The notes beneath the pieces were generated by a model. The model saw only the letters and a list, made by a program, of their open reading frames with translations, was not told where the DNA came from and made no database searches. The position numbers were made by a program, and so were the translations under genes. Shown one piece after another: positions 11,640-60,298 of a stretch of 64,000 nt of DNA. The stretch is taken from NCBI GenBank assembly GCA_013407085.1, contig JACCGJ010003605.1:1-64000 (forward strand). The letters run 5' to 3'. How positions within the stretch are numbered: the stretch's first letter is position 1; the number at the start of each line of letters is the position of its first letter. The DNA comes from Atriophallophorus winterbourni (lineage: Eukaryota; Platyhelminthes; Trematoda; Plagiorchiida; Microphallidae).

Positions 11640-12900
11640 AAATGTTAACAGCACTTGCAAATTTAATCAGAACACAAAACAACTCATATTCTTGAAGCAC
11701 ATAAAGAGTTTTAAATTTACATACCAAGAGAAATGAAGCTTAAAATAGGTAAACGATTTAATCTGAGGCTAAACGTTTAATCAGAGCACAAAAACAAATG
11801 ATGTTCTTGGAGCACGTGCATATTTGAGCAAAGGAATATAGCGTAAATTTTGGCGATGAAATCAACTGAAGATACAAACTTACTCAGAGAACAAAGCAAA
11901 TGATGTTTTTGGAGCAGGCGCAGAGTTGAGCATTTGCATACCAGAAGAAATAGTGTTAACTTGGAAAAAATAGTTTGTACTCGAATTACAAGTTTATTTA
12001 TAGCCCAAAAACATCTAAGTTTTTTGTAGCACGTCGAGAGTTTAATCATTTGCATACTACGAAGAATGAAGCGTAAATTTTGGCGATGAACTCAACTGAA
12101 GGAACAAACTTACTCAAAGCACAAAAACAACTGATGGTTTTGGAGCATGCGCAGATTTGAGCATTTGCATACCAGAAGAAATAAAGTGTTAACTTTGTAA
12201 AAATAGTTTGTACTCAAGTTACACGTTTATTTATAGCACAAAAACATCTAAGTATTTTGTAGCACGTGCAGAGTTTAATCATTTGCATACTACGAAGAAT
12301 GAAGCGTAAATTTTGGCGATGAACTCAACTGAAGGAACAAACTTACTCAGAGCACAAAAACAACTGATGGTTTTGGAGCATGCGCAGAGTTGAGCATTTG
12401 CATACCAGAAGAAATAAAGTGTTAACTTAGTAAAAATAGTTTGTACTCAAGTTACACGTTTATTTATAGCACAAAAACATCTAAGTTTTTTGTAGCACGT
12501 CGAGAGTTTAATCATTTGCATACTACGAAGAAGGAAGCGTAAATTTTGGCGATGAACTCAACTGAAGGAACAAACTTACTCAAAGCACAAAAACAACTAA
12601 TGGTTTTGGAGCATGCGCAGAGTTGAGCATTTGCATACCGGAAGAAATAAAGCGTTAAATTATCCAATAGTTTGTACTCAAGTTACACGTTTATTCAGAG
12701 CACGTAACAACTAAGGTTCTCGTAGCACATGGAGAGTTTAATCATTTGCATACTACGTGGAAAGAAGCGTAAATTTTTGTGATGAACTTAACTGAAGATA
12801 CAAACTCTCACGCAGAGCACAAAAACAACTGATGATTTGGAGCCTGCGCAGAGTTGAGCATTTGCATACTGGAATAAATAAAGTGTTAACTTGAACAGTT
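11640..12900. repeat. 232-bp satellite, dimeric units
   Basis: The phrase GCGTAAATTTTGGCGATGAA recurs at about 11840, 12072, 12304 and 12537, with a degenerate copy at 12767, so the period is about 232 bp. Each unit is itself two related halves of about 116 bp. One half carries AGCACAAAAACAACTGATGG and GAGCATTTGCATACCAGAAG. The other carries AGCACAAAAACATCTAAG and ATCATTTGCATACTACGAAG. The outer copies are the most diverged. Confidence 0.9.
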
Positions 12901-15037: not shown

Positions 15038-15086
15038 ATGCTTAAACTCAACATTGTATCCGTATTGTGTGCCCTAATAATTGTCG
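15038..15086 (+). CDS. MEG exon 1: start and signal peptide
   Basis: The ATG lies 54 nt after the TATA box. The exon encodes MLKLNIVSVLCALIIV plus one base of the next codon and ends at donor GTGAGT (phase 1). A basic residue followed by a hydrophobic core is typical of a signal peptide, and cleavage probably falls after the IGA encoded in exon 2. Confidence 0.85.
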
Positions 15087-16812
15087 GTGAGTGCTAGAAA
15101 TTTATAAAAAAGTGACTCCAAACATTTTGATAATAACGTTATTTTTATTTTTGCGTGTCTTACAGTCATCGGAGCACGAATAAGGTATGTGCAACTTCAA
15201 TTAATGTTCGTTTCCATAAAATTGCTGTGCTTTTCATTAATTGCAAATCCAATCGAGTTGATCTAACTCGAATGAGATTCCGCTAGAAAACATTTCGGTA
15301 TTAGATTGGTGATTTGCCAAAAATTTAAATTTGATTTCGAGATGCATGATAGTTAGATATTCATCAAAGCATTCAGTAAGAAATTTTTTCGTTTTTCATA
15401 TATAACATGAATATTGGTGTATGGAATTTAGCTAGATTTTCAATTAGGAAATTTGAACAAGCATACAATATTCCAAAACGTTTGTCACACCTGCATATGT
15501 AGGGCGACCAATGTTGGTTATATATGAAAACGGTGAATGTTACAAATGTTTAAACGAGTGATACTTGAATGCCACTGTTGCATTGGGTCCGTAAAACAGT
15601 GGCATTTAAGTATCACTTGTTTACCATTAATCCACTGTTTCAAGGCTCACTGAACCTAATCTTACTGACTCCACCTGATGACGCAAACAGTCAGAAACCG
15701 GTAGTGGAGTGTAAGTTCAGTGAATGTGAGCAACAAATAGCTTTGGGTAAAAATGTATGTTTAAGTCTGTTTCGTGTTCATCATGTGAATGAATAAAGAT
15801 ATATAAGATGAATTGTTTTCGGTAGAATGAGTATATGTTCTGATAAATCGAAAAGACGATTTTCTTGTAGTCAATAATTAGTTGGAAAATTGTGAAGAAC
15901 AAAATTGTTAAACTGCTGCAAATAAACGTTTTTCATGATGCCTTATATATTGTAACTATATTTTCGAAGATGGAGTGCAAAAACGATTGTCGGATATATT
16001 ACACTATCCGTGGTATGCATAAATCGTCAGACATGGTAATCGTATTTGCTGTACACTAATTAACACTATGTTTGATTAATAAATTTACTAATTTTTCATT
16101 TTGTTCGATTCGGCGAAAAGATTAATGAAATTTGAATATATTGTCTCTCAATTATAGACAACGTCCTCGACGTCAAGATGAGTGAGTATTCTCATATTTA
16201 GCGTACATAGGCCTTCATACTCATCAACATATTACGTTAAAATGATTTTTTCACAGAAATGAATTACGTAAAGAACTGTATGTCGTTAATTTTGTTATTT
16301 GTTTTAACAATATTCATTGAGATTCATTTTTATTCTTTTACAGTAGTGAAATATTTCCCTCAGTGCTATTCATAATAATGTTCATAATATTCATAATTCT
16401 GATTTCTCATGAGTATCAAATCCAGAGCTGCTATTGTCTGTTCTATCAAGGCCATCGCGCGTTTTACTGCGAAAAGATAAATGTTTAAAATTCATGAATG
16501 TTTATATCGGATTGTTCAAGTCTTCATATATGGTGGTGCTCACATTCAAATTATTTAAACACTACCGGTTTCTGGTTGATTGCTGTGGTCCGGTTGAGAC
16601 AGTAGGGTTAGCTTCACTGAGCCTTGACACTGTGGTATAGTGCTAAACATGAAGCTGATGAAGCATATGTTTCGAAGTAAAATTATGAAAGCCTGCCAAT
16701 CTTCATTCACTTACAAATATTTATTTCCAGTATTGAACTTCAACATGAATTGTAAGTCTGCTGTAATTTTATTTTGGTTTCAATGCTTTCTGTCTTGATG
16801 GAACTAGTTCGT

Positions 16813-16860
<48 letters not shown>

Positions 16861-19800
16861 CTATATATATATATATATACTGATCCTGACAGTCTACATT
16901 ACTTTAAACCACATATGGGCAACAAGTTTAACGTGACAATAGCATAGGGAATCTTAATGTGAGAATTCTTAGGGAATCTTATAGTTCCCCCATTTAATTT
17001 AGTACATTTATTAACAGGAGATATTCCGCTTCCGTTAACTTATCTTCTTCGTATAAAAATCTTCCTAGGATTACATTATTTCCGCTGTAGAAAACCAGTC
17101 AAGTTTTTTTCCGGGCAACAACATTATTTCGCTGTGCGAATTAAAACAAACGTTAGGCTCATTATTTCGCAAAATCTGAATGAGTACATTCGATTTGAAC
17201 AACGAAGGCCAATATGCTTTTGTTATATGGCATATGAAGCAAATTCAATATTTCGAATCAGTATTATTCCAGATTGTAAATTAATTCAGCGAAAGAATTC
17301 ATACAAAAAAATATACGAAATTTATTCGCAGTTTATGTAATAGCATGTAATGACAAAAGCACTTTTGTCGGGAAATTAATTATTAAGCTTGCAATGAAAA
17401 ATAATAAGAAATAATTCTTAGTCCTAACCTTGATAAAAGCTTCATATGCACACTGAGTAATAGTAATAAGCAAATTAGGAATGAGGATAAGATTGAGAAG
17501 GACATTGGTAATCAATGAACAGATAATGTTTCACTTTTATAAAAGTACAGTTTTTAAAATGATGTACGTTTTTATATCAAAACGATTATTCGATTCCTAC
17601 AACAATAATAAAAAATCGGAATTGTTAACATGCCAGACACAAAACCTAATCCGCTGAAATCAATATTTAAAAGAAAGTTCCCTAATTTGATGCTTCACCA
17701 CATTTTTCGTAACGAAGTCATCTTCATTTTCGCATGCTTTGTTACAAATTCCTTGTATCATATTCTTACGTTTTAATTGCAGCTTTCGAAAATGGGATGC
17801 AATGTGAGTTGCAACTAACGACTCTAAGTGAAATACCATTTGAATTATTACACATTCTATACATTATTACTTGGTAGAATAGCGTATTGTTCTGGAGCAT
17901 AATATTTTAATACTAAATGTACTGAAAGACTAAGTAGTATGAATAGATAATTTATTATTTTCGTGGCGAACATTATGTTGCATTGACCCAGAAAACGACA
18001 AAAAAAGGAGTATGATAAATAGGATAATGAATCACATAACATTTCGTTTTTCTATATCAATAATACGGCATTGATTTGAGTGCAAGCGGGGACACATTCC
18101 TCGTATTTAGTGAACACCTTGAAGTCAGAGATCTGGAGATAAATGCTTTGCAATACGATGCTATTTCCAAGATCGAAATGAATACATAAAAATCTTGATG
18201 GTTTTGCCTCTCGTCTGATCTAAATTTTAGTTTGGAAGTTAATTAATTATGTAGAATTCTATCAAATTGTATTATAATTGTACCTGAAAATAGACAGGTA
18301 GTTAGATACACCGCTTAGTGGATGGATAGATGATTACATGAAAATATACACAATAGGACTGACAAAACTCAATCAGTATATTGAATGGTATATGAAAGAT
18401 TTTTTTGTTTTTTTACAAACGTTTATATTTTCATATTGTTCCGGATATTTCATATTTCATATTTCATATTTTATATTATGAACATTTAACGTCCAAATGT
18501 TTCGGTAATAATGACATTTTAGTTAATTTCTATATCACTTGTGATTCCAGAATTAGCACTAGATAAACAATTTTTCAGTATTTGTCTAATCTGTTTTCAG
18601 GAAAGCTGAGAAGTATGAAGCGTGAGTGATTGGCAACTCTCTATTCATAATCTGTAGATATTTTCGGACCCTGTCATACCTACCAATTTGTTTTGCGAAA
18701 TCATCCCGCAACACATTGTATAGTTAATATAAATGAATTATTAAATCATACTAATGATCATTTAAAGGCATTGCACCACAAAATAGCTATAATTATCCTT
18801 TTTCCGTTCCACACACAGTAGCAAAAATTCAGATTAGTGAGTTACTATTTGAACTCTCATATTTTAACTTGGTATCAAGTGACCCATCTGACCCTCATCT
18901 GATTCTACCGCAATTGTAATCCAATATTCACCCGAATCTCGCATGTTATGACGTGGTGATAATACCAAGCATTGCACGGCTTACTATATGCTAAATCAAA
19001 AACCAGGTTGCTCTTTCCTATGTACGAGAGTAGACACTGCAAATTAACTCATGAAATCTCGCTACAACCAGCGCAATAATAACCGCCGTTCAATTGAATT
19101 CAAATTTTTATGCCACCAGATTCAAAATTTCCGTAACTTGAATTTTATATTCGAAATTGTAAAGTTGGATTGTTTAAATCAAATTATCCTCACAGAAAAA
19201 ATAATAATCTACGGAAACTTTGACACTTTAGAATAAATCTGCACCACATAAAATAATTTTGCTTTTTTGTTTATTCTATTTTAGTTTGAAGGTGGAAAAT
19301 GTGGAGTGAGTTTCATTTCTTGAAATTCAATCATACCGAAATGTTCGAATATCATGAGTTTATATTAGTCTTCTGATCAGCAGTTAAAATTTCTCTTAAT
19401 CATGGATATATGAATGAGTGCAAGAAAATATCTAATTGTACACAAATTTATCGATTCATAGCAAACTTAAGTATTTGTTGCTGAAAAGAATGTCGTGTGA
19501 TTCAAAGAAAATCTGTTTCCTATTTACAATGTTATATCGAAACCTAGTGATGTGTTCTTGATTTACATAAGTATTTCGCAAATAACGTATACTTTAATCT
19601 TTTTATCTTACAGAATAAACGAACTTTATACACGGTAACTCTATTATTCACTATATTAAAATAAGATACTTCTTTCTGGATTAGTTAATGAATACCGCAT
19701 ACATGTCACATTTCAGATTTTCTCAAAACACAACCATGTAAGTATACACACTTTCATTTGAAATTACAAAACAAAATGATGTAACAACATTTTATATATT

Positions 19801-22800
19801 TTGTCCACACTTTTGTATTCATAACACAGAAAAGAAGATAATTTGAAATTGTGAGTTTCCTAGTTGCAGTAATTCAAAATAATTGATAATGTATCTAGGT
19901 AAATGTCATGAAAATGTCTAATATTCGAAGTCGAACGCAAATCAAAAATTAATAGCAGACTTCATAAGGAAACTTAATCTAATTCCTCGTTAATTAGTTG
20001 TTGAACTATTTCAACTATATTTTGCAGAATGAAAATCCAGAAAGATTTGTGAGTATCCAATTTCATCCATCCCAATTTACGTCTCATTTGACAATTTCTG
20101 TTATGAATAACCGATAACCCATGAATAACCCACCGTACATGGTACATATAGCAAACACGTAATAATAGATCACGGGCTTATCTTCGATGTTTACGCAATA
20201 CATTTCAACAGCAAACGTCGTCAAAATAAATCAAAAACGCATTAAAATGAAATTCTTACATACATTACACAAAATGACCACACGCACAACGCGTGTGGTC
20301 ATCAGTAATTGTAAATTTGTTCGTGCCAACCTTATCCAAAAGTTTGTTAAAAGTTTGAAACTAATTATATTCTCTGGTTACAGCATGGATTTTGAAGTGA
20401 AAAAGTGAGTTCACATCGATTTAAACACGGCCAATTTACAACCCGGACTGCTCTTGCTTCAAAATAATTAACGACGCAGTGTAATTTTTGTTAATACTTA
20501 TTCGGTACTATAGGAAGGTATTTTGCGAACATAATATTTCAGTCGGTTAAATAAAATTTGACTTAAACAAAACAATCATGTCAACATGCACATCATTATG
20601 CTACGCGTCTTCTAAAATTTACAAACTGTGGTTAAAGATGTAACTAAGGTTGAATATGTAATTTGTTAGTAGTCTTGCTACAACCAGTACTTAGTACGAT
20701 TATGTCCGTAGTAACACTAGAATGTTATGAGAATCGTTAAACTTTTCCTACGTAAATCTCACGATTGACTCCTGGACAAACTGTCAAAATGCTTACATCC
20801 GGGACATGAAAGAACCAACGCATTAGGCAAATTATGAGACAATTTTGAAAACAATGATATTCGAATATTTTATTTCGTCGGTGATGTGGAAGCGGCCTTG
20901 ATTGCGCGATCAAAGCATGGAGCATACGAAACACAAGCGTAAACCATGGTCAACCATAACTGTTTTATGTATCTAGAGCAGAAAATAGTTCAATATTGAT
21001 CACTTCTCATTTGTTTTCACATAACTTTATCATTGATCAATTGAAATCTTTTTTATTTTTTATACTAGGCTGTGGAAATATTCAGAGTAAGCGTTAGTCA
21101 TTAGTTTACATTTTCTCTCTCTTTATTTTATTATATTGTATAACATGCCAGTAGTTATATTTGCACATAATAAGGTCTAATTCGTTTATTCTCGGATGTT
21201 CTGATTCCGTATACTGACTAAAATTGATTCGTATTGTGCACGCGAATTTCCGTCTAAAATGTCACTCATGACATTACAAAAAGTTCATATATCAACCCGG
21301 TTAAATTGGTGCAAGTAAAATGATGCGTACATGTAAGTCGCATGTCACTTTGTATGGAATGCGATTTCGGTACACGCCACAACATTGTGTCTGTTCCGTT
21401 TGTACTCATCATATAAAAAATACGATCAAAATCTGCATGCCGAAAAAACAGTAAACGTGTGTTAGACAAAGCGACTGTTGGGTACGTTTAGTAATACCAA
21501 TATTTTTTTAATCACAATACCATGCAATGTGTATACGAATGCGGTAAACACAGGGATTTGAACAAAATATTCATATTAGCAAGTATTCTATTATGAGCAG
21601 ATCACACTCAACAAATGCGTATTACCGCATCCACATGTGCATTGTTAGTGTACGTGAATAAACCTGTTGATTGCACTAAGCTTTCCTGATATTAGCCTCA
21701 ATTTTCTAGCTTCGAATACCAACATGTTATTTGAGAATCAGTATCCAAGCCTGTAGATAACATGAATAAACTAATACCGTTGAACCTTAGAAAGAAAATG
21801 AAGAGGTTTCAGAGTTTTATTCGACAGATCACTTTTTAACTTCTTCAACTAATACGCTAACTCAATCAACGTTAATTGCAGGCGCTCAAAGAATTTAACG
21901 ATTAGTTTTATATTTAAATGAAAATTTCTTTTATATTTTACGCAAGCTTGCCTCGTGGGTACATGTAAGATTATATTTTGATAACCTTATTTCAAATTAA
22001 ATGTTTCTTATTTTTAGAAAAAAATAGTTAAAATGATTTGTTTAAAACATTTGTTGCGAACTTTTATATAATTTGAACAATTACATAAAATTCTTCCCAT
22101 TTATCGATAAAGTATGAGCTTGACGGAAATTCGCATTACAAAATCGTATTTTTTAGGTTGAGGTAAATTTGTCTTATTAAGTGCACTTGCGCAATTGATA
22201 CCGGATATCCCGGAATCTTTTGCTTCTGCAGCGAAACTCCAGAAAATGTCATAAGCATTCGGAGTTGTGATCCGAATAAAGAGGATGACAGTTTGCTAGG
22301 AATGATAGTATTTATGGGTTTTTGCTAAGCTTCTGATTTATTGCGGACTCAACGGAAATGAACTATATACGTGTGAAATTTCGTCTTCAGATGTATTTTT
22401 ATTCATAAAAGTATTGTATTTTCATATTTTGGACAAAAGCTCACCTGGATCAATTTTCACAGTGAGACCTTAATATGAAGATCAAGCAGGATAATATTAA
22501 TTGGAATTAATAGAACACGACTTTTCTTTTACTCGATCAACTTTTCGTGAAAATATTTCAATAAAATCATAGGTTAATATTTTATAAAATTGTTTGAATC
22601 GAAAGTCTCAGCTTCACTGACGAGACAGCTTTGTTTCTGTCTACCAGCGCCAACGAAATACAACGGATGTTGTGGAGAGAATTAGCGAATGTTCAACTTG
22701 GATGATTTTCCATATCATATTGGTTTAGTGTCCATCTGAAATTTTACCGACTGGGCAAAATAAACCCAGTTTTTGATTATTTAAAAATGTGAATTATATA

Positions 22801-25800
22801 ATGAGTATTGATGGAAACATTGCTATTATTGACAATAAAAGTTTTCAGGCAATTCTACGGACGGAACTAGTAATGGATATAAAGAAATATCAGAAAATAT
22901 TATTGCAACTTTATTTTCGGAACTCCTGATTTTTAAGATTAGGTTTCGTAGCTGAATTGTGCCATGATTCACTGAATCTTTTCAATACCCAGGCATAATT
23001 TGAAGAATAGTTTCGACATACTCTAACATTACGTTCATCTTCCGGGAATAAAATGCAGTGTGTGAACAACAGATTCAATACTTCAAACCAAAAAACTGAT
23101 AATCATAAAAATATCTGAGAATGAACGTTTGTGGAACGTAGTTTTTAATACAGAGGTATACTATCTTTCAACTACTTATTTTTTCCTAATGCTTTTAGCA
23201 ATCCACCCAATGAAGTGAATATGTGAGTCAACATTATTTTCTCATTGAGTATTTACCTCACTCCCAAAATTAGCTTCATTTGAAAGTCAATTCACTAATG
23301 CTACGAACGGCTAATATTTTTTGATCAACCCATGCAAAGCATTTCAAATGGATTTTAACAACGCGATATTTTTGTGTACATACGTTTTCGACAAAATGGG
23401 ATATTTTGCATCAGTCAACAAATGTGTTGTCAATTCATGTAATTACAAGATGTAATAAATCTCAGCAGATTCTATCGGTGATATATTGGCATCAACTAAT
23501 GTCGCAATCACACACACACACACACACACCACGACTGGTCTTGTGCTGTTCACACTCCTTAGATATTGGCAGTAATATCATGATCAGCATGTGCTTGAAA
23601 CAGTGGCAGAGTGGTTAAAATTAGGGTTTTCCTTCACTTAGATGAAATGCCCTTCCAGGCTAACGAGCTCCATCTACCCGAAGCAAGCTGGTTTGCAGGA
23701 GCCAGTCACTCGCCATCGCCACTTCTCGTGTTCGTAAAAGAAGTTCCGCCTGGCTCGGGAAGCCACTCGTGAAGGCTAGTAGCTGGACTTGGTTGTAAGA
23801 GGCTATTTGAGACTTGCGACATATGGGAGCATTTTATACACAGTGGGAGCTCATCCCCACTGCGTCCGCGCATTTAACGACTGGAAGAGTGAGTTGGATA
23901 GATATAATTGTATTCACGATTGTTACTTGGAGAATTCCAGATCTTTTGACAGAGTCAAACACGATCTACTTCATCAGACTTTTAAGGGTTTAACAATCTG
24001 TGATACACTTCAATAGTGGTTGTGGTTCTAGTTGTCAAGTCACCACACAAGAGTTAGATTCAACAAAGTGCTTTCGAATAAGAATACTGCGGAGTTCCAC
24101 ACGGATCTGTGCTATTTCCGATTCATCTTCTCATATTCATAAATTATTTACCACTCTCTCATGCCGTCAAAATGTATTCCCTTCGTGGATGATGTAATGA
24201 TGTCAATGTGAATGAATTCAACAGAAGACTGTGAGAAAGAGCAAATGTTTCGACTAAACTTATCCGTTTGTGATGCTGTTAATGATATGACATTCAAAAC
24301 ACGGAAACGCAATATACGATCATTTGAGTATTGATAAGTGGAATCCTAAATAGGACAGTTCACTGCCAGAATGTAATACGACAGGCAGAATATATTGCTC
24401 TCTTCAATAAGGTATAACGAGGCGCAACAATTTTACCTATGTTTTTCGTGATTTTCCGTACACCGCAAGATTGTGACGTCTAGGTCTATGTGACATTGCC
24501 CGAATGAGGATACGGCGCTAAATTATTCTTGTCTATAGAATTGTGGCTACTGGAAGACATTCACTATGACAATTGATTCAAGAGTGTAATGGAAAAACGA
24601 CACTTCAACATACCATATTTCATTGTATTTCTAGCTTATGTATTGTTCGTCGAGTCACTGTTAACCGTACTTGCTATATTTTTCTGAAATTCATTACTCA
24701 AATATTTCGAGGTGTTGTTGTGAAGTAATAACATTTCAACATCAAATCGTTGAAAACTCGAATTCTGGAATAATGTTAACGTAAAGCTATCATTGTTCAA
24801 TAGCGGACTTTTTATACAAATGATGTGATGCTTACTAAACAAAAGTGGATCAACAAAATATCCTCATTTGCGTGACATTTCATTACATACGTCCTAGGCA
24901 CAAAGAAAATATATTCCGAAATATATTGCATGTTAAACGTTGGAGCTTTACTTTATTGACGGCCGACTTACTGTGTTTGTTACATTGAAATTCAGGGTAA
25001 ATAGACTTTGCAGTGTATTTAATATCATGTAATCGTTTGACATAGACAGAATAATAACTCAAACATACCTACAGTATTTTGCTAGCATTATTTTGCCTGA
25101 CTAATGCATTTTCGGCTATTGAATTAAAAGATTCGGTACGGGAAATGCTCTGTGAGTTCCAACATAACATTATAATCAGGATTCCGGTTAGCTATATTAC
25201 GTTTTTAAAATAAAAAAATATTTGAAATATATCATTTATCGGAGGATCAGTTAATGTTTTAATTGAGATATTTGCGTCTGTGCGAAACCACCATCAATAA
25301 TCGAGTCCAACAGAAAGAAGCAGCTCTAGCTGGCACATTCTAACATTACGAATAATTGATGTATATACAGGTGTGTACATTTATCCACTGTTTCAAGGCT
25401 CACTGAAGCTAATCATACTGTCTCCACCGGATGACGGCAAACCACCAGAAACCGGCATTGGAGTGTAATTTCGGGGGATGTGAGCAAGACATGACAATGG
25501 ATGTATATGTTTTATTGAAACCGTCTTTGACATAAATTACTGAAACCTCTTTGACGCCTAAATGCATTTATATATGTGCCATTTATTCTTAAGTTTACTG
25601 TTAAATTCCCTGATCTTGGGGATATACTATCAAACCTTTTTGAGCAGTAATGCTACATGATGCAGCGGAAATGTGAGACACTCACTATGATCGAGTGTCA
25701 AACTATATAGTGAAAAAAGTTGGCGAAGCAGACAGAATATTGCAATACGAATATTAAAGTTCGGTTTCGAATCCACTACACTTGCCCACTTTTAATAATG

Positions 25801-28800
25801 AGGTCGAAAAGGCTCTTCATAAAACATTGTTTAAATTAGGTATGGATACCGTATTTAGGATGTAGCAACGTCCAGATAGTGATTTCGAAATATGCTTTTT
25901 AAACTTCGTCTTAAATAACTACCTATCCAAATCCTTGGAACAAGAAATCATTCTGGTGGAATTGACTTCTTTGTGATATTGCCCATTTAGAATGCTCCGC
26001 TACGCTTTTTGTTCTCGTTATTGATATATTGAGATTCATTTAAATCTGTTTTATTTAATCACAGTGTTGTGATCGCAGATGAACTGTAAGTTTTCGAAAT
26101 TGTTTGTTTACACGACAAACTTCATTTCGTGATTAACTGTGAAATATCAAATATTCGTTTACAATGCCCTTTTAATTTCGTAAGTAAGCTGACAGTAATT
26201 CAAAATATGTGTGATCTGCTTAAATAAACTTTCTTTTAAATAGAGAGTTTGTATGAACAAACCAAATTTATAGGAAAACTGATAAAATCAAAGATGGCAA
26301 ATAATTAGGACTCCAAGACATTTGGTTATGAAGCAGGAAGTCAAGAAATCAATGCCTAGCAGGATTAAACGCGGAAAATCGTTTCATTCTGTTGCATTTA
26401 AATGAATACATGTATATGCAAACTTGTATAAAAATATACAATCACACAAACATACATACATACATACATAAATACATACAAATATATATACATGCATGAA
26501 TACATAAATTCATACATACATCATGAATACACCAATAAAAGCATATGTGCATAAATTCATTGATAAATGCATTCCAAAATTTATAGCAATCCATATATAT
26601 ATATATAAATATCTATGCTGTTTTACTCATCGAATATTAATATTATAATTTTTGATGTATTCCTAATTTGAAGTTCGCCAAATCAACCGTAAGTTGCAGT
26701 AATTCAAATCATGCTGTGCGAAATTTGCTTGAATACTATTAAAATGCTTTCATGATATTTGTGTTTATCATGTCTAATACTGTCATGTATTAAATAAAAT
26801 TTCTGAAGTAAATGAAAAAACGAATTCGAATTTATTGGAATATTTGATTTTATATTGATGCGTCAAATCGACAATCAACCCACGCGTTTTTCTATTAAAT
26901 CATTTGGGTCATCTCCTAAAGATTTACCTGTTAAAAATATCTACACTCGGTTTGATAGAAAATCACGTAGCTTATTCAAAAGATTTTCATTGTGAATTAT
27001 TCGTGAAGCGTGGGTGTAAGCAGTTATAAATCGGGACAGAGAGAATTTCAACCAAGAGTTCGTTTCCGACAAATATTTTTTCTAAATTAGTGCGGAGCAA
27101 AACGTGGCTCTTAAAATTAACCCATGAACTATGTTTTGTAGTGAATGCCATCTTTAAGTTTGCAATAAAATTATAATGGAAGTCTTGGCGAGTTTTGCCA
27201 ATTAGTGTCTAATTTCATTACAATTTTAGTATTCAGCAAAGATGGAGATAGTGAGTTGCTGATAAACTTCATTCCTAATCAACATTCAACATGTGTTCCT
27301 AAACAAAACTAAATAAACTACATTTAATTTACTACAAACAGCGATTGGATCGTTAGTGCAATGTAAGTTGAATTATTCGAGTAATCCGAGAACATTGAAC
27401 CTCATATAATAATCGAGCGATTCTATGTTTTATATCAGGAGGAAAATTACGCAAGATCTGTGAGTTATTCTTTATATGAAAACCATCAATATACCGTATT
27501 CCATATTCAAATTGCATTAGACACATCCGTGCTTCCTACTCGAGTTTAACGTATCATCTAGTCTTCAAATTAAGTAGGTAATTAAGATTAAAAACAACAA
27601 GATAAGCATGCAATGTAAAATATATAAAATAAACATTACATCAGAATAAATCCGAATTACTCATTGTTTCACTAAGTGCATCAATTTAAGTCCTAGTTTT
27701 GCCTGGTTAGAACTGTGCGCTGCACTACAAGATTGCAAATTCACAAGGAATATTAATATACTCAAACAATCACAGGGTAAAATTTGAAGCACTTCTCCTT
27801 GATGTCTGGCTTAGGTATTACATAGGATTTTTGGATTCAATACATACTAAATTCTTTCTCTTGTCTCAATTTGGAAAAAAATGTTATCCATGTGATAAAA
27901 TGATCCTGTTAGGATGAATATATTTTCGTTTGTCCTATACTTAACTACATATCTGCTGCATGGAGTAAATTGTGTATAGTAAAAGAGATAAAAAGCAAAA
28001 TCGTCGGAAAATTTGTGAATTTACGGTTTTTCGTATTGGAAAAAATACAAACAAATCCCAAACTGATGAAATGACTTCGTTGGTAAACAATCGATCGAAT
28101 ATAGAATATGCGTTTTGCCGTACAACAAAATGTTTGAATTTTTACAACTTTTTATCTGATCAGATATAATAAATTTCATTAACGCTCCAATGCATGATGT
28201 TCGTTAACCCACTCTAAATTTTGCTTTATGCCAGATCACGTTTGTAAACACGCGGGCAAGTAAGTTTTGTTTTTCGAATGGCATTCCAAGTGAAGTGACA
28301 TTTCTGAAATAAAATTGCGATTTCTAGATCAGAATCACACAGATATTTTGCGATAAATCATTGAATAATTCTTGCATTGTAGATAGTAGATCGAGAACTT
28401 AGATTCAAATCCACACCAAAGAAGAAGAAAGAAGATGATTAAGATGTCTTCAGAAGGATGCAAATGTATCTATTAGATAACTGATAGAAATTTACTTGTA
28501 GCAAGTCTATAAATATATGCTAAAAACACTGAAAATGTGCCGTTCTTGTTGGAGGATTTAGTTAACTGGTGATATTTGTAACATTCTTCGGTGTCAAACT
28601 AGATGTGACCAACAGTGAAACAAAATAATAGAATTAATTTTATGCTTAAAAATTATATTTTTGTAAATTAAATTACGCAGCTTTCCCCCCATTTTTTATT
28701 CATTCATCTATAGCTAGTCTGGAGAGTATACATTTTAATCGAATCGAATATTCGTCATTAAAGTACAGAATATTATTTTTATTTGTGAAGTGCGAACCAA

Positions 28801-29078
28801 ATTGTGTTCATAATGATCTAAATGATACTGTGAATTCAAACAGACAGGGACCACAAATCAATGTCAATTCGTTGATTTCGTCCATCTTTTGTGATTGATT
28901 CGAGTTCTTTCACATCGCAGATGTTGCAACGCAATTGTTGCCTATTCAATGCACATGCGAATTCATATTCCAAAGAAATAAATTTTCACATATTTTCTTT
29001 CATTTCAGATTCAGCGCATGCAATTGTTCAACCGTTGCAAGCGAACTTCAGTCAGCTGTAGTGAAATGTAGTTGCTAG
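15038..29078 (+). CDS. Micro-exon gene (MEG-like) secreted protein, 24-exon model
   Basis: A 189-residue protein is spread over 14 kb. Exon 1 encodes a signal peptide (MLKLNIVSVLCALIIV continuing VIGA). Exons 2-23 are 15-24 nt and the last exon has four cysteines in two CxC pairs. Intron 1 is phase 1 and all others are phase 2. Twenty-two tiny exons join without a stop and each ends in a strong donor (mostly GTGAGT, GTAAGT or GTATGT), which is hard to get by chance. Known schistosome MEG genes have this architecture and encode small, variable secreted products made by exon skipping. The middle of the protein is rich in Lys, Glu, Asn and aromatic residues and has no cysteine. Most exons encode seven residues. 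I cannot match it to a numbered MEG. The exons with an AAG acceptor (21947, 26674) are less certain. Transcript evidence is not available. Confidence 0.85.
15166..15184 (+). CDS. MEG exon 2 (19 nt)
   Basis: The acceptor is CTTACAG and the donor GTATGT. It encodes V-IGARI and shifts the phase from 1 to 2. It is the only internal exon whose length is not a multiple of three, so it should be constitutive. Confidence 0.8.
15557..15617. other. Near-perfect hairpin in MEG intron 2
   Basis: Arms of 23 nt (15557-15579 and 15595-15617) pair throughout except for one G-U wobble, with a 15-nt loop. The 61-nt size is at the low end for an animal pre-miRNA. It may instead be a decayed palindromic repeat. 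Confidence 0.6.
15640..15720 (+). repeat. Dispersed repeat, copy 1
   Basis: The stretch from ATCCACTGTTTCAAGGCTC to AAACCGGTAGTGGAGTG is repeated at 25380-25470 and, reversed, at about 16555-16635. It lies in intron 2 of the MEG. A GTAAGT at its end is repeat sequence, not a donor used by the gene model. Confidence 0.75.
16158..16181 (+). CDS. MEG exon 3 (24 nt)
   Basis: The acceptor is AATTATAG and the donor GTGAGT. It encodes R-QRPRRQD, a basic patch that directly follows the predicted signal peptide, and it is symmetric (phase 2 to 2). Confidence 0.8.
   Translation, partial: TTSSTSR
16257..16277 (+). CDS. MEG exon 4 (21 nt)
   Basis: The acceptor is TTTTTCACAG and the donor GTATGT. It encodes E-NELRKE, seven residues in phase 2. 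The intron before it is only 75 nt. Confidence 0.85.
16555..16645 (-). repeat. Dispersed repeat, copy 2 (inverted)
   Basis: The elements ACCGGTTTCTGG, AGACAGTAGGGTTAGCTTC and ACTGAGCCTTGACA are reverse complements of blocks in the 15640-15720 copy. It is in MEG intron 4. Confidence 0.65.
16731..16751 (+). CDS. MEG exon 5 (21 nt)
   Basis: The acceptor is TTATTTCCAG and the donor GTAAGT. It encodes L-IELQHE. The peptide resembles that of exon 4 (NELRKE / IELQHE), which hints at exon duplication. Confidence 0.85.
16815..16880. repeat. (TA)n microsatellite in MEG intron 5
   Basis: About 66 bp of TA dinucleotides with two small interruptions, 64 nt after exon 5. Confidence 0.9.
17783..17803 (+). 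CDS. MEG exon 6 (21 nt)
   Basis: The acceptor is TTTTAATTGCAG and the donor GTGAGT. It encodes F-FRKWDA in phase 2. Confidence 0.85.
18601..18621 (+). CDS. MEG exon 7 (21 nt)
   Basis: The acceptor is CTGTTTTCAG and the donor GTGAGT. It encodes M-KAEKYE in phase 2. Confidence 0.88.
18819..18836 (+). CDS. MEG exon 8 (18 nt)
   Basis: The acceptor is CCACACACAG and the donor GTGAGT. It encodes A-SKNSD and ends in TA. Skipping exon 9 and joining exon 10 (starts with A) would create a TAA stop, so exons 8 and 9 should be used together. Confidence 0.82.
19285..19305 (+). CDS. MEG exon 9 (21 nt)
   Basis: The acceptor is TTCTATTTTAG and the donor GTGAGT. It encodes Y-LKVENV in phase 2. Confidence 0.87.
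19614..19634 (+). CDS. MEG exon 10 (21 nt)
   Basis: The acceptor is TTTATCTTACAG and the donor GTAACT, a weaker donor than in its neighbours. It encodes E-INELYT. Confidence 0.82.
19717..19737 (+). CDS. MEG exon 11 (21 nt)
   Basis: The acceptor is CACATTTCAG and the donor GTAAGT. It encodes R-FSQNTT. The upstream intron is 82 nt. Confidence 0.85.
19830..19850 (+). CDS. MEG exon 12 (21 nt)
   Basis: The acceptor is TTCATAACACAG and the donor GTGAGT. It encodes I-KEDNLK. The upstream intron is 92 nt. Confidence 0.83.
20028..20048 (+). CDS. MEG exon 13 (21 nt)
   Basis: The acceptor is TATATTTTGCAG and the donor GTGAGT. It encodes L-MKIQKD in phase 2. Confidence 0.87.
20274..20302. other. Perfect 12-bp stem in MEG intron 13
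   Basis: ATGACCACACGC and GCGTGTGGTCAT are exact reverse complements separated by the 5-nt loop ACAAC. The stem lies 81 nt before exon 14 and is unusually GC-rich for this intron, so it could affect splicing of that cassette. Confidence 0.6.
20384..20404 (+). CDS. MEG exon 14 (21 nt)
   Basis: The acceptor is TTCTCTGGTTACAG and the donor GTGAGT. It encodes F-MDFEVK. A perfect hairpin lies about 80 nt upstream in the intron (20274-20302). Confidence 0.87.
21069..21086 (+). CDS. MEG exon 15 (18 nt)
   Basis: The acceptor follows a T-rich tract, TTTTTTATACTAG, and the donor is GTAAGC. It encodes K-LWKYS and is symmetric. Confidence 0.78.
21947..21964 (+). CDS. MEG exon 16 (18 nt), AAG acceptor
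   Basis: The acceptor is TTTTACGCAAG, using AAG rather than CAG or TAG, and the donor is GTAAGA. It encodes D-LPRGY in phase 2. If it is not used, exon 15 still joins exon 17 in frame. Confidence 0.5.
22157..22162 (+). CDS. Candidate 6-nt MEG micro-exon
   Basis: GTTGAG is flanked by TCGTATTTTTTAG and GTAAAT. In phase 2 it would add two residues (M-L if joined to exon 16) and keep the frame. Exons this short occur in schistosome MEGs, but so small a match could be chance. Confidence 0.3.
22849..22869 (+). CDS. MEG exon 17 (21 nt)
   Basis: The acceptor is AAAGTTTTCAG and the donor GTAATG. It encodes M-QFYGRN and ends in TA, so the following exon must start with a pyrimidine. Exon 18 starts with C. 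Confidence 0.75.
23199..23222 (+). CDS. MEG exon 18 (24 nt)
   Basis: The acceptor is CCTAATGCTTTTAG and the donor GTGAGT. It encodes Y-NPPNEVN. The intron after it (2842 nt) is the longest in the gene and holds a LINE fragment. Confidence 0.85.
23511..23530. repeat. (CA)n microsatellite
   Basis: About 20 bp of CA repeats in MEG intron 18. Confidence 0.85.
23600..24230 (+). pseudogene. LINE RT fragment inside MEG intron 18
   Basis: Plus-strand frames read ENSRSFDRVKHDLLHQ (RT motif A region) and, in another frame, GVPHGSVLFPIHLL followed by a decayed FVDDV block. These are CR1-type RT blocks A to C in order with frameshifts. The first part (23610-23780) contains TGGCAGAGTGG, which resembles a pol III box A, so a SINE may also be present. 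Confidence 0.65.
25380..25475 (+). repeat. Dispersed repeat, copy 3
   Basis: It shares ATCCACTGTTTCAAGGCTC, CTCCACC.GATGACG.CAAAC and AGAAACCGG.A.TGGAGTG with 15640-15720. It is in MEG intron 18. Confidence 0.7.
26065..26085 (+). CDS. MEG exon 19 (21 nt)
   Basis: The acceptor is TTTATTTAATCACAG and the donor GTAAGT. It encodes I-VVIADE, the most hydrophobic of the internal cassettes. Confidence 0.85.
26446..26525. repeat. (CATA)n-like microsatellite
   Basis: Imperfect CATA tetramers in MEG intron 19. Confidence 0.8.
26674..26688 (+). CDS. MEG exon 20 (15 nt), AAG acceptor
   Basis: The acceptor is CCTAATTTGAAG (AAG) and the donor GTAAGT. It encodes L-SPNQ in phase 2. Exon 19 can join exon 21 in frame without it. 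Confidence 0.45.
27230..27250 (+). CDS. MEG exon 21 (21 nt)
   Basis: The acceptor is TACAATTTTAG and the donor GTGAGT. It encodes P-IQQRWR (L-IQQRWR if exon 20 is skipped) and ends in TA, so skipping exon 22 would give TAG with exon 23. Confidence 0.87.
27342..27362 (+). CDS. MEG exon 22 (21 nt)
   Basis: The acceptor is TTTACTACAAACAG and the donor GTAAGT. It encodes Y-DWIVSA. The introns on either side are 91 and 76 nt. Confidence 0.83.
27439..27459 (+). CDS. MEG exon 23 (21 nt)
   Basis: The acceptor is GTTTTATATCAG and the donor GTGAGT. It encodes M-RKITQD in phase 2 and joins the last exon to make CTA (Leu). Confidence 0.87.
28236..28259 (+). CDS. Candidate alternative exon (24 nt), phase 0
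   Basis: It is flanked by TTTGCTTTATGCCAG and GTAAGT, so the splice sites are good. In the phase 2 frame of the MEG it hits TAA. In phase 0 it is open (ITFVNTR-) and would continue into 28383. A frame-shifting exon would be needed to reach it. Confidence 0.25.
28383..28442 (+). CDS. Candidate alternative terminal exon, phase 0
   Basis: The acceptor is TTCTTGCATTGTAG. In phase 0 it encodes IVDRELRFKSTPKKKKEDD and stops at TAA. It is closed in phases 1 and 2. The Lys-rich then acidic tail looks protein-like, but no AATAAA was identified close by. Confidence 0.25.
   Translation: MVDRELRFKSTPKKKKEDD
29009..29078 (+). CDS. MEG terminal exon
   Basis: The acceptor is TTCTTTCATTTCAG. In the required phase 2 it is open for 22 codons, reading FSACNCSTVASELQ then SAVVKCSC, and stops at TAG 29076. 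Two CxC pairs are the only cysteines after the signal peptide. The AATAAA 10 nt after the stop supports this as the 3' end. Confidence 0.87.
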
Positions 29079-29087
29079 AGGTTGAAC

Positions 29088-29093
29088 AATAAA
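29088..29093 (+). promoter_or_regulatory. Polyadenylation signal of the MEG
   Basis: AATAAA occurs 9 nt after the TAG stop, giving a very short 3' UTR. A T-rich stretch follows at 29108-29120. Confidence 0.75.
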
Positions 29094-37861: not shown

Positions 37862-38650
37862 CTATTAATAATAATAATAATTATAATTATAATTATAATT
37901 ATAATAGTAATAATAATAATATTAATAATAAATAATAATAATACTCATAATAATAATATAATATAAGAATTATATAATCATAATCCTCCTCATACTAATA
38001 AATAATCCTCCTACTACTCATAATCATATAATCCTATACTCCTCACTCATCTAATACTAATAATCCTCCTCAGAATCCTACTCATCCATCATCTCCTAAT
38101 ATCATATAATCCTACTACTACTCCTACTAAACATGCCCATACTACTCCTAATATAATACCTCATAATATCACTCATCCTCTCCTCCTCCTCCTCCTCTCC
38201 TCCTACTCCCCCTACACTATCCTCCTACTCACTCCTCCTACTCATACTCATCCTAATCCTCCTCTCCGCCTACTAAAACCCTCATCCTCCTACCTCCTAC
38301 TCCTTCCTCCTCCCTCCTCCTACTCGCTCTCCTCTCTCTCCTACTACTATCCTCCTCCGCCTCCCTCCTCCTCATCCTCCCCTCCTCCTCCTCCTCCTAC
38401 TCCGCCCTCCTCCTCCTCCTCATCTACTCCTCCTCCCTCCTCCTCCTCCTCCTCCTCCTACTCATACTCCCCTCCCTCCATCCTCATCCTCCGCCTCCTC
38501 CTCCTCCTCCTCCCTCCTCCTCCTCCTCTCTCCCCTCCTCCTCCTCCTCCTCCTCCTCCTCCTCTCCTACTCTCCTCCTCCTCATACTCCTACTCCTCAT
38601 CCTCCTCCCTCCCTCTCTCTCCCCTCCTCCTCCTACCCTCCTCCTACGGT
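37862..38650. repeat. Degenerate triplet tract, TAA grading into CCT
   Basis: It starts as AAT/TAA triplets (37862-37960), passes through a mixed CTA/ATC zone, and becomes an almost pure pyrimidine CCT/CTC tract of about 450 bp. The strand asymmetry is extreme. Frequent one-base slips in the triplet phase may be real decay or sequencing error. Confidence 0.9.
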
Positions 38651-39290: not shown

Positions 39291-40007
39291 CGTTAATATT
39301 ACTGGGTGTGGACCTGGTACATTTGATGCCGGAGTTCAATTTAAATTTTAAACTGATTGCGAAACAAAAGTTGTCGAAACTTTTATTGTAATCCGTTTGC
39401 GTCTTTTGTGTACCAGTTTGCCGTTAGAACTTTTATCGTCACCGTATGAACTTCTATACAAAGATCAACTACGAACGTTTATATTTTCATAATATGGCGT
39501 TGTCACCTGTTTTCTAAATAGCATCATCATATCCATTGTGCACACTCACTTAAATAAAACAGATAACCAATCATACATTTTCGAATGAAATTCAACCACT
39601 TTATGTTTCACGTGAAATTCATTTTCTAAAATCCGAACTACATAGTGCAAAACATGAAACTATCTTTTAATTTAATATTTATACGTTGTTGTTTTTGTTG
39701 ACCTCTTTCGGTAAATGTCGACCATGGATGTACATCACAAGCGCGTGTGGGTTTCATGCTGGGTAGCTTTCAAAATGACTAACCATTCCGCGTCGGGACT
39801 GACAATCTCTCGCTCAGCGCTCACAGCGATATGCAGTACTCCGTCGATCGGTGTCAGTTGCATGCCGGGGGCGTGATCTACGTTGAACAGCGAAGATATT
39901 TATCCACTCTTCCCCAGCTTGGACATGACCATTTATACAGTTTCTCCAATGTAAGCAGTCAAGAGCATGATCTCACCTCGTCGGATCAATGTCAAAAACT
40001 TTCGTAA

Positions 40008-40218
40008 CTCATGTTTTGGCGACTAATTTTCAGTACCAAGTCCTTGAAAATATTCACAAAGTTTATCACGACGGTCCACATTGTAAGCACTGGACTCGAG
40101 TTTCGCTCTTATTTCAGCTCATTAGAATTGCATATCCTGTGTCGGGTCATACTCGAACCCAGGACCTTCACCATTGTAGTCTCATGCCCTACGGCCTGAG
40201 CTACCGTCCACTGTTTGA
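40008..40218 (-). mobile_element. Sm-alpha-type SINE, copy B
   Basis: On the minus strand a tRNA-like head carries a box A GGTAGCTCAGG (about 40207) and box B GGGTTCGAGTATGACCC (about 40160), followed by a hammerhead domain and a tail. This matches the organisation known for schistosome Sm-alpha SINEs. Confidence 0.85.
40087..40131 (-). ncRNA. Hammerhead ribozyme motif, mutated core (SINE B)
   Basis: The core reads CTAATGA in place of CTGATGA. Stem II (AGCT...AGAGC, weak), CGAAAC, the mini stem III CTCGAG and the cleavage triplet GTC are recognisable. The G to A change should inactivate it. Confidence 0.7.
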
Positions 40219-40431
40219 CCGACTGCAATTAAGCCTTGATGAATGTTTCTCCAGACTGGCACATTTGCGTAGCGTTATATGCCTGACCAGTCGTGAAGGA
40301 GCCAGCAACATCTGTTGTGGTCGTCCAACCGATGTGATCTCCTTGTCAGGTCTTCCCATCAGATACAGTGTAGGCTAACATTAGTTAACTCTGACGGGCA
40401 TTGTTGTTTTTGTAGAGTGCTTGAAGAGTTG

Positions 40432-40645
40432 GTTCATTATGTTTGGGCAACTACTCATCAGTACCAATCCTTCGAAATATTCACAACGTTTATCACGACG
40501 ATCCTCATTGGAAGCAATGTACTCGAGTTTCACTCTTATTTGAGCTCATCAGCAGTGCATATCCTGTATCGGGTCGTACTCGAACCCAGGAGCTTCACCA
40601 TTGTAGTCTCATGCATTACGCCCTGAGTTACCGTCCACCGTTTGA
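40432..40645 (-). mobile_element. Sm-alpha-type SINE, copy C
   Basis: Same layout as copy B, with box A GGTAACTCAGG and box B GGGTTCGAGTACGACCC. It lies in tandem 210 bp downstream of copy B with a shared orientation. An inverted piece of its tail follows at 40648-40735. Confidence 0.85.
40514..40558 (-). ncRNA. Hammerhead ribozyme, intact core (SINE C)
   Basis: On the minus strand: stem I GCACTG with CATTGC, conserved CTGATGA, stem II GCTC/GAGT closing AAATAA, conserved GAAA, a minimal stem III ACTCGAGT, and cleavage expected after GTA. All core bases are present. One stem I pair is mismatched. Confidence 0.75.
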
Positions 40646-40647
40646 CC

Positions 40648-40735
40648 ATGGACCGTCGTGATAAACTTTGTGAATATTTCGAAGGACTTGGTACTGATGA
40701 GTAGTCGCCAAAACATAATGAACCAACTCTCCGAG
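40648..40735 (+). repeat. Inverted SINE tail
   Basis: The + strand carries GACCGTCGTGATAAACTTTG through GCCAAAACATAATGAACC, which is the reverse complement of the tail region near 40005-40075 and 40430-40500. The copy therefore lies inverted next to SINE C. Confidence 0.8.
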
Positions 40736-41339
40736 CAGTCTACTTTCGTAACGCTTTTACAAAGGTCTTTGGGATGCAAGTGTGATCTGCATAGTGGTCG
40801 ACCATCTGATTTCAAATTACTTTGTAGTAAATCTTTCGGAATACAACTATTTTTCTTTCTTTCTTTCGACGAATGATGCGAATCATTCAGCTACCGTTCG
40901 TATTCAATACGCACGCGACGTATACCAGCATCATTTTCTTCACAGCTACTTGCATTTAAATGATAAACGAAAGTACAAACTAGACATGTTAATGGAGGCT
41001 CTGTCAATCCGAATACAAATCGCCCTTTAGCAGATATGTGAAACGATGTTTTGGTTCCTGTTGACAGTTATCAACATTGAGTATAGTAGGCGATAATGTC
41101 CGTTGCTCAACGACATGGTTATGCTCATAGTGATTGTTAGCACAAAATCTTTGCATTACAGTTGACCTTACGTTGTTAAACGTTTATGCACATAAATCGA
41201 GTCTTTATATAGTGTTTACTCACAACAATCCATGAAAGAGTTCCGCTGAAAGACTGTGTAGTGGAATTAGTTATTTCCAATGCCAGAGTTACTGCAAAAC
41301 ACGCGTCACGTCAAAACTGTCTAAGTATGTTCATGGTAG

Positions 41340-41572
41340 ATAGACGATGTCAAAATTAACCAAGTGTTATGTCTGTGCTGCACTACTGTTGGCCCAGCCC
41401 GTATGGTCAGAGAAAACACAACCGTCTCTCAACTCGTCTATCCACCGAATGCAAAGTGTATCACAAGTGAGCAAATGTGTGAATATCATAGTGAGTAAAA
41501 ATCACAATTTGACCTCACAATCAATCTTAATTGGTCGATTAATCGATAGTTCGTTAACTGTCTATACGACAG
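41340..41572 (-). mobile_element. Gypsy LTR start (3' LTR, extent uncertain)
   Basis: Immediately downstream of the integrase tail on the minus strand is a purine-rich run GGTGGTAAGAGGGGA, then TGTCGTATAGACAG, as expected for a polypurine tract and an LTR start. The far end of the LTR is not defined. Confidence 0.45.
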
Positions 41573-41599
41573 AGGGTCCCCTCTTACCACCTCCACGGT

Positions 41600-42130
41600 T
41601 TAAGCTTGGTTGTCGTATAACGTCAGTTTTGGATTCACTTGCAGGCGGGTTACTGAAACACGCCTTTGTTCCGTCCGATTTCTTTGTCTGCATTCCGGTG
41701 AATTAATTCGAGGGGAATCGTCTTCCGCTGACTTTCTTTGTTCTGGGCTTTTGAGGTTGAATTCACCCAGTAGGATTTCCAATGGAGCTTTCTGTATACT
41801 TGGAGAATTCCATTTTACACTTGACGCTCTTAGTTGGTTTGCATGTCGTTCCCATGTTTCTTTTCCAACCATTATCTCGTAACAAACGTGGCACACGATC
41901 TTGCTAACGATCGCTGGTGTCCATTCGATCTTATCAACGGGGTAATCCTTGGCAAGGACATTTTGCCCAACCATAACTTTTCGGAGTTTGGCACCGTTAT
42001 GTCTATTGAATCAGGCTTCCATTTTAAGATTCTCATCGATATGCCCAATCGTGTTTGGTCGCATGAGATCGAAGATGGTTTTCGGTGTTTTCCTCAGCAA
42101 GACTTACGGAGGTGATAAGGCTCCAGGTAC
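41600..42130 (-). pseudogene. Ty3/Gypsy integrase C-terminal fragment
   Basis: Minus-strand reading gives LLRKTPKTIFDLMRP and then, after a stop, VMVGQNVLAKDYPVDKIEWT, IVSKIVCHVCYEI and ETWERHANQLR. This is the C-terminal GPY-like region of Gypsy integrases (VLA.DY...W.PGI......Y.V......RH.NQLR). The catalytic core is absent. A + strand frame of 119 codons over the same bases is its antisense shadow. Confidence 0.8.
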
Positions 42131-42189
42131 GTTAGGATTAGGAAACACTTGAGATCTGCGTGAACTAGTCTATCTTTCCACGAATGATC

Positions 42190-42817
42190 AATGAATAGCT
42201 GGAGTAAGCGACCGTTTCGAAGGCCAAGCTTCTGTGATGACTGCTGCTTAGTAGAAAAGCAATTTGCATTCTTGAAACTGCGACGAATGTCGACCTATGA
42301 AATATTTCGACATTTTAGAGCCGCTAGGAATAAGATCTGGCAAAGTGAAAGTTGATGTACACATGATTGTTGAACAGAAATTAGCCTTGTTATCCAATAC
42401 ACTGTGGATACTAGTAACTTTCTCCGTATGTATTAATGGAACAAAAGAGCTATTGGTACAACACAGTTAACTTAGCTCAAATTATTTCGCAAAACATCCC
42501 ATTCACTCTGCAATAAATAGCTAAATTCTCACTGACTCCGTGCTGTAGTGACTCAACATGGATCTCGAAATTCACTTAACCTATAATTGTTCCAGATATT
42601 TTATTGTATATTTCATAATTTTTCTCGTGATTATTTTATTTCAGTAATATTGGTTCACTTGTTTTTACCATAGATGATGAATCTTTTAGTTCGATTGAGA
42701 AAAACAAAAAACAAATTTTACGAGATACTGCAAATCCAAAATTCTAAGTTCACTAAAATGCTCTGTTTTGTTGCACCGTTGAACCTCAACGTGGTTTAAG
42801 ACTTTAAAAAGTTTTGT
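42190..42817 (+). repeat. Left arm of long inverted repeat, copy 1
   Basis: It is the reverse complement, with about 10-15% divergence, of 46243-46826. Shared blocks include CACCGTTGAACCTCAACGTGG, AGAGCTATTGGTACAACACAG and TTTCATAGGT.GACATT in opposite orientations. Confidence 0.85.
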
Positions 42818-42840
42818 ATATATAGCTCACGTATGAGTAG

Positions 42841-43134
42841 TATAAATTCAGAAATCATCTCATTGCTTTTCAAGACGACGAGGATTACTCGTTTGACCGT
42901 CGTCGACAGCATTCTATCAGTGTGAATTTCATTTTGAAACTGAAAGCAAAATATCCTATCCTCATCGAAATGATTAGATCTGAATCATTCCCGAAAATTC
43001 TTTCAACTCGATTGATTAATGTTTCGAACTTATTGTTTGCCTATTCAACCTTGACATATACAACTTCAACAAGATGCACCCTAAATAAAAAAAACTCAGG
43101 ATCGACAATATTTCTAGTCCTACATTTGCATTAA
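42841..43134 (+). pseudogene. Conserved protein fragment of unknown function, copy 2
   Basis: Open for 98 codons with no suitable upstream start: YKFRNHLIAFQDDEDYSFDR, then ISVNFILKLKAKYPILIEMI and IRSESFPKILSTRLINVS. Homologous to the minus-strand fragment at 38840-39290. It sits just inside the inverted repeat arm. Confidence 0.5.
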
Positions 43135-43299
43135 AATTGCAGCATTTAATTTAATTTGCCTTAAAAATCTTGTAAGGGAATGTGATGTTAATGTAAACAC
43201 ATTATTTATTGTTTTTTCTTGTTCTGAATTGTGATGGTACTTATGTGTGTCTGGAACCACCCTTTTTCACAAATATCCGAACTAAACATAGAGTTGCTT

Positions 43300-43345
43300 A
43301 GCGTATTATTATTATTATTAATATTAAGATAAGGAAAACCCTTAT
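43300..43345. repeat. (TTA)n microsatellite with adjacent short palindrome
   Basis: A TTATTATTATTAATATT run is followed by AAGATAAGG..CCTTATCTT, a small inverted repeat. Confidence 0.7.
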
Positions 43346-47600: not shown

Positions 47601-47610
47601 GAATATCCCG

Positions 47611-60275: not shown

Positions 60276-60298
60276 ATATATAGCTCACGTATGAGTAG

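Follow-up and report, generated by a model that had tools for sequence, protein, structure and literature searches.

A window of 64 kb (the whole stretch of DNA analysed here, contig JACCGJ010003605.1, positions 1 to 64,000) carries on its plus strand a split gene that spans 15038-29078, from an ATG at 15038 to a TAG ending at 29078. The gene is very probably real, and with a probability of roughly 84% it is a micro-exon gene (MEG) from a parasitic flatworm that is probably a trematode. Its core internal exons number 19, namely one of 19 nt, two each of 18 and 24 nt, and fourteen of 21 nt. Past exon 2 the length of every one is divisible by 3 (18 in succession), and 18 of the 19 are symmetric. 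The acceptors of all 19 are CAG or TAG; the first intron is in phase 1 and all later core introns are in phase 2, with intron lengths in the core chain of 75 to 2842 nt, and splicing the core exons together gives a frame free of internal stops.

Much of this had been described in a first-pass annotation of the same DNA. The gene ends that it gave were all located (the ATG, the TAG at 29076-29078, TATAAA at 14978 and AATAAA at 29088), its signal-peptide first exon looks like one by eye, and its phases and single open frame were recovered as well. The further claim of a complete gene with 22 internal exons and 189 residues stands for 19 exons, or 171 residues; the other three, with AAG acceptors of a chance-level class, are uncertain, and the C-terminal frame is putative.

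Splice-pair statistics and coding evidence

The exon chain was evaluated with generic splice-site weights that were written before any training, and acceptor-donor pairs were listed regardless of length or frame. The first list, for pairs of 6-45 nt at a higher threshold, comprised seven pairs, five of them of 21 nt and the others of 19 and 25 nt. A second list was made at the lowest threshold (3) for pair lengths of 6-60 nt, and here the gene region gave 24 pairs, 13 of which were exactly 21 nt long; 18 of the 24 had an open phase 2 and a length of 15-24 nt that is a multiple of 3. When the region was shuffled 200 times with dinucleotides preserved, 21-nt pairs averaged 0.23 (maximum 2) and open phase-2 pairs 0.69 (maximum 6). 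The unshuffled controls were similarly poor, with 21-nt and open phase-2 pairs numbering 0 and 4 on the plus strand of the left 15 kb, 1 and 1 on that of the right 35 kb, 0 and 1 on the minus strand of the gene region, and 3 and 8 on the minus strand of all 64 kb. The overall number of pairs is not elevated (41 in the left 15 kb vs. 24 in the region), so it is by the lengths and phase of its pairs that the region is distinguished.

These counts bear directly on the possibility that random AG...GT pairs have simply been chained together. Chance could account for three of the 22 proposed exons, whose class is no more frequent than expected at random; the generic-weight shuffles rule it out for the 19 core exons, and as an account of the gene it has a negligible probability. 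A second weight matrix was trained on exons picked by eye and is partly circular for that reason. Its leave-one-out scores for the 19 core exons, 8.7-22.9, agree with the generic picture. Exon 27342-27362 is missing from the generic-weight list even at the lowest threshold.

The codons give a further line of evidence. Across the 19 core exons, stops make up 0 of 114 codons in phase 2, 14 of 132 in phase 0 and 7 of 113 in phase 1, a count that treats exon 2 (itself entered in phase 1) together with the rest, and G occupies 29% of first codon positions vs. 16% in introns. No cluster that might mark a second micro-exon gene was found in the 64-kb window, where only 17 in-phase candidates lie outside the gene's own strand and region, dispersed over both strands. 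Two minus-strand 21-nt pairs, at 52711 and 45868, were rejected as candidates, being identical in their letters and lying in two copies of one repeat. In addition, near exon 26065-26085 the minus strand has acceptor and donor consensus sequences 21 nt apart (26063-26083); this opposite-strand bracketing is probably a coincidence, with CTGTAAG reading CTTACAG backwards.

Table 1. Predicted features of the gene, with positions in the window
Feature	Position	Strand	Remarks
TATA box-like TATAAAA	14978..14984	+	60 nt upstream of ATG
Exon 1 (coding part, 49 nt)	15038..15086	+	start codon; hydrophobic core like that of a signal peptide; donor gtgagt; phase 1 at exit
Exon 2, 19 nt	15166..15184	+	entered in phase 1, left in phase 2; no other internal exon is asymmetric
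Micro-exon, 24 nt	16158..16181	+	phase 2
Micro-exon, 21 nt	16257..16277	+	phase 2
Micro-exon, 21 nt	16731..16751	+	phase 2
Micro-exon, 21 nt	17783..17803	+	phase 2
Micro-exon, 21 nt	18601..18621	+	phase 2
Micro-exon, 18 nt	18819..18836	+	phase 2; ends TA, so skipping the next exon gives a stop
Micro-exon, 21 nt	19285..19305	+	phase 2
Micro-exon, 21 nt	19614..19634	+	phase 2
Micro-exon, 21 nt	19717..19737	+	phase 2
Micro-exon, 21 nt	19830..19850	+	phase 2
Micro-exon, 21 nt	20028..20048	+	phase 2
Micro-exon, 21 nt	20384..20404	+	phase 2
Micro-exon, 18 nt	21069..21086	+	phase 2
Doubtful micro-exon, 18 nt	21947..21964	+	AAG acceptor; poor score
Micro-exon, 24 nt	23199..23222	+	phase 2
Doubtful micro-exon, 21 nt	25131..25151	+	AAG acceptor; strong donor
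Micro-exon, 21 nt	26065..26085	+	phase 2
Possible micro-exon, 15 nt	26674..26688	+	AAG acceptor; strong donor; best of the three with AAG
Micro-exon, 21 nt	27230..27250	+	phase 2; ends TA, so skipping the next exon gives a stop
Micro-exon, 21 nt	27342..27362	+	phase 2; acceptor weak by generic weights, good by trained weights
Micro-exon, 21 nt	27439..27459	+	phase 2
Candidate exon, 25 nt	28235..28259	+	splice sites fair; phase-2 entry would put a TAA in frame
Last exon, coding part to TAG (29076-29078)	29009..29078	+	phase 2, frame inferred
AATAAA polyadenylation signal	29088..29093	+	starts 10 nt past stop

The three exons with AAG acceptors

Adding the three AAG-acceptor exons to the core yields 22 internal exons and 171+6+7+5 = 189 residues. 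Since both totals match the first-pass annotation exactly, these three are presumably its extra exons. Their class was gauged through loose candidates, defined as a strong donor with any AG 15, 18, 21 or 24 nt before it and phase 2 open. Outside the core the region holds seven such candidates, two of them alternative starts of core exons, while an equal length of sequence holds 7.0 on the plus strand outside the region and 5.0 on the minus strand. As a class, the AAG-acceptor exons are no commoner than chance and are not supported.

Proposed working of the gene

The arrangement of the exons suggests how the gene would operate. A single transcript would start near 15 kb, and some 19 internal exons, or as many as 22, each of 15-24 nt, would be spliced between the signal-peptide exon and the terminal exon to give a presumably secreted protein of 171-189 residues. 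The signal-peptide-like hydrophobic start, by inspection, runs from exon 1 on into exon 2. One gene could then provide many length variants, mostly stepping by whole 7-residue units. Because phase 2 is common to all core introns but the first, and the exons after exon 2 are multiples of 3, an exon could be skipped without a shift of frame. The junction codon is open in 181 of 190 forward exon-to-exon joins and in 16 of 18 single-exon skips, the two that create a stop being the skips of 19285-19305 or 27342-27362 alone. What we infer for such a gene is that it is transcribed, that its exons are in fact skipped, and that the protein is secreted and has a part to play at the host interface.

Repeats occur both within and ahead of the gene. 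A short dispersed repeat of ~90-117 bp, whose copies are 79-85% alike, has three copies in the gene's introns (15618-15733, 16560-16649 and 25372-25487), one inverted. Farther upstream, ~2 kb before the TATA box, a 233-bp unit stands in tandem in 4.5 copies (11840-12892).

The intronic repeat copies could be taken as signs of a decayed or silent relic, in which the exons are real by descent and transcription has been lost. A neutral relic, however, should have lost some of its sites, whereas none of the 19 core exons has lost a splice site or its open frame, and the start codon, the last acceptor and AATAAA are intact. The relic is for this reason disfavoured and has only a slight probability.

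The last exon and the C-terminus

The acceptor of the last exon scores 11.3, above every other acceptor in the strong-pair list outside the region. All three frames of this exon are open, for 16 to 22 codons. Upstream of it, the candidate exon at 28235-28259 scores 13.3, within the core range given above, even though it lay outside the training set. Its use would end the protein early, because of the TAA that is in frame in phase 2. It may be a decoy or an alternative C-terminus, and the frame given for the last exon is the one predicted from the phase lock.

The gene could thus be the same one with another C-terminus, either through use of 28235-28259 with the stop inside it or through a last exon read in another frame. 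The candidate's score and the openness of every frame in the last exon both speak for this. In contrast, the plus strand outside the region has 14 non-exon pairs that score at least 13 (one starts at the last exon's acceptor and three share one donor), and inclusion of the 25-nt exon would break the phase lock common to all 18 core exons after exon 2. A different C-terminus is on balance unlikely, if a good deal more plausible than a relic; it is a question within the micro-exon-gene reading, and its odds overlap with those of that reading.

The predicted protein and its heptad pattern

The predicted protein has 171 residues from the core alone and 189 with the three AAG exons. A search for protein relatives with the 182-residue version gave 53 candidates, which had to share 5-residue words with it, and none of them reached E<=10, in a database that includes Schistosoma and Trichobilharzia proteins but whose MEG content was not checked. 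Likewise, none of six linear-motif patterns coded from the accessible portion of a survey of S. mansoni (PMC10526429) occurs in the core protein. Pfam offered nothing convincing (best E 0.11), nor did solved structures (best E 0.011, to a protein named MITSUBA-1), and six peptide words of the protein had no match in the literature. Exon-1 DNA had no match among viral contigs.

Hammerhead RNAs are known from schistosome repeats. A search with the whole Rfam library, aimed at the hammerhead, found no structured RNA at the gathering score.

A regularity does emerge when the fourteen 21-nt exons are aligned by residue. Taking V, I, L, M, F, W and Y as hydrophobic and the split codon as position 1, positions 1-7 have 11, 9, 2, 8, 3, 5 and 1 hydrophobic residues. 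This unevenness among heptad positions has a permutation p of 0.0002 (20,000 within-exon residue shuffles), and the best a/d pair of heptad positions has a p of 0.003. The pattern is not merely splice-site composition, because position 4 is distant from both splice sites. The last exon base is T in nine of the 14 exons. Splice consensus prefers G at this base, and the use of T against it suggests that the protein pays the cost.

Tests for an amphipathic helix were negative, with a largest 18-residue moment of 0.49 against a shuffle mean of 0.52 (p 0.63) and a segment-wide moment at the heptad angle of p 0.06. The pattern is thus tied to the exons rather than to one unbroken helix; the moment tests count against a continuous helix, and the per-exon position pattern stands. 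Mean identity among the fourteen exons is 0.336 vs. 0.305 in codon-phase shuffles, a weak signal (p 0.0015). An origin by exon duplication was rejected, given the weakness of that signal and a self-comparison that shows only the short repeat, without any copied intron.

One proposal equates each 21-nt exon with a heptad, hydrophobic at positions 1, 2 and 4, such that each skipped exon would take one whole heptad off a helical rod and leave its face in register, with splicing setting the length of a secreted protein; it adds that the gene belongs to an undescribed family in a trematode other than Schistosoma. Taken as a whole this proposal is tentative and rather unlikely to hold in full. The correspondence of exon and heptad is possibly new.

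Retroelements and the source lineage

The lineage from which the DNA comes can be approached through the retroelements of the window. For a CR1-type element, judged on the best 120 of 3833 matches, the three closest matches (57-62%) lie outside the named rows; the named fluke matches are Dicrocoelium at 48-49% (the best), Trichobilharzia regenti at 43% and Opisthorchis at 40%, and other matches include a bird at 34% and a bacterial bin at 38%. No named Schistosoma appears among those best 120. A tree of the element with 19 matches places it inside a group with Dicrocoelium, with Opisthorchis and Trichobilharzia further out. For an RTE element the top match reaches 88%, the best named matches listed, at 64-68%, come from snails, a mussel, a horseshoe crab and a fish, T. 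regenti reaches 54%, and the listed Schistosoma sequences are at most 51%. The want of near-identical Schistosoma matches among those listed, though the genus is in the database, suggests that the source is probably not Schistosoma; a trematode is probable.

The RTE element supplies part of the case for a convergent gene in a non-flatworm animal, effector-like and rich in micro-exons like the phase-2 bicycle genes. The available portion of a report on these genes in aphids and scale insects (PMC9168663) describes them as having a signal peptide and numerous small exons, the internal ones being nearly all in phase 2, and the named RTE matches and tree likewise lead away from flukes. On the other side, the CR1-type element falls in a set in which the named sequences are those of Dicrocoelium and, at a greater distance, of Opisthorchis and Trichobilharzia, and a cysteine-tyrosine-cysteine motif was not seen in the predicted protein on inspection by eye, with no script. 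Convergence of this kind is improbable, less so than a relic.

Several points weigh against a flatworm micro-exon gene and should be set beside the evidence for it. The exon chain was chosen by eye before training, and only the generic-weight lists are independent of that choice. The frame of the last exon is a predicted one, and the candidate at 28235-28259 conflicts with it. The 182-residue protein is without a homologue at E<=10. Stops occur at 4.7% of exon joins, which is not clearly below the rate in random sequence, so the open joins are permission for exon skipping and not proof of it. Finally, the RTE tree (16 rows) groups the element with Dreissena, Limulus and a fish and not with flukes. 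RTE-type elements move between species, and for this reason the grouping is weak either way.

Other repeated sequences of the window lie downstream of the gene. A 6.1-kb stretch occurs twice, at 39582-45676 and 57009-63135, with 97.5% identity and the copies set 17.4 kb apart; it contains CR1-type reverse-transcriptase frames and has a further partial copy at 50636-53620. A long, CTC-rich low-complexity array occupies 38172-38645, in a 2-kb bin with a GC skew of -0.456. Minus-strand retroelement frames extend over 47600-49900, with aspartyl-protease-like and DUF1759-like stretches below the Pfam cut-offs.

Comparison with known micro-exon genes

Micro-exon genes have been defined, in the part of the source available, by at least seven exons, at least half of them shorter than 70 nt and divisible by 3, and a run of at least four (PMC7653826). 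The predicted gene has 21 core exons with the first and last included; 18 of the 21 are micro-exons in this sense, and these form a run of 18 past exon 2. The architecture is well supported, and no numbered family can be assigned. The first-pass annotation had called it schistosome MEG architecture, and it is the word schistosome that does not carry over, the retroelements not being close to Schistosoma. Taken together, what that annotation observed is partly confirmed and its interpretation partly supported.

Literature on micro-exon genes in flukes other than schistosomes was also sought. Among the matches listed, the papers that use the term are, to judge by their titles, on Schistosoma, and it is absent from the main text of the Fasciola hepatica genome paper. 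The start motif of Hymenolepis, as given in the portion of PMC7653826 available, was not seen in the predicted protein by inspection.

Schistosoma MEG families 1-32 are among the closest known systems. As far as the accessible parts of five papers describe them (PMC10526429, PMC4671649, PMC4350168, PMC8293314 and PMC4413821), these share with the present gene long flanking exons, the first of them with a signal peptide in Schistosoma and a signal-peptide-like start by eye here, short symmetric exons, long introns, a small protein without known domains and transposon-rich surroundings. They differ in that the protein predicted here has no sequence relative in the search described above. Excerpts of one of the papers describe a pair of long exons on the flanks, the first bearing the signal peptide, and micro-exons between them, of which 26 of 33 are symmetric in one set (PMC4671649), compared with 18 of 19 here. 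In S. mansoni, micro-exons are mostly 15 bp with 10-20 exons per gene, in the section of PMC10526429 available, whereas 14 of the 18 symmetric core exons of this gene are 21 nt. The kind of gene is thus already known, and this one is unusually long and regular.

Outside the schistosomes, the tapeworms Echinococcus and Hymenolepis have the same architecture, according to the available parts of PMC7653826 and PMC4413821. Bicycle genes, in what could be consulted of PMC9168663, resemble the prediction in that they encode secreted proteins on numerous short internal exons, nearly all of them in phase 2; unlike the present gene, they are insect genes with cysteine (CYC) motifs, and the CR1 element of the window points to a trematode.

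Gene finders are known to have difficulty with such genes, as the available portion of PMC7653826 states. Here the gene was found without a transcript, and scans can be built on the combination of fixed exon length, fixed phase and splice sites. A true rule of one exon per heptad would suggest that symmetric exons are kept for variation of length in fixed structural steps, besides the variation of epitopes. If the source is a fluke other than a schistosome, the gene would add one more lineage from which to judge the age of micro-exon genes in flukes.

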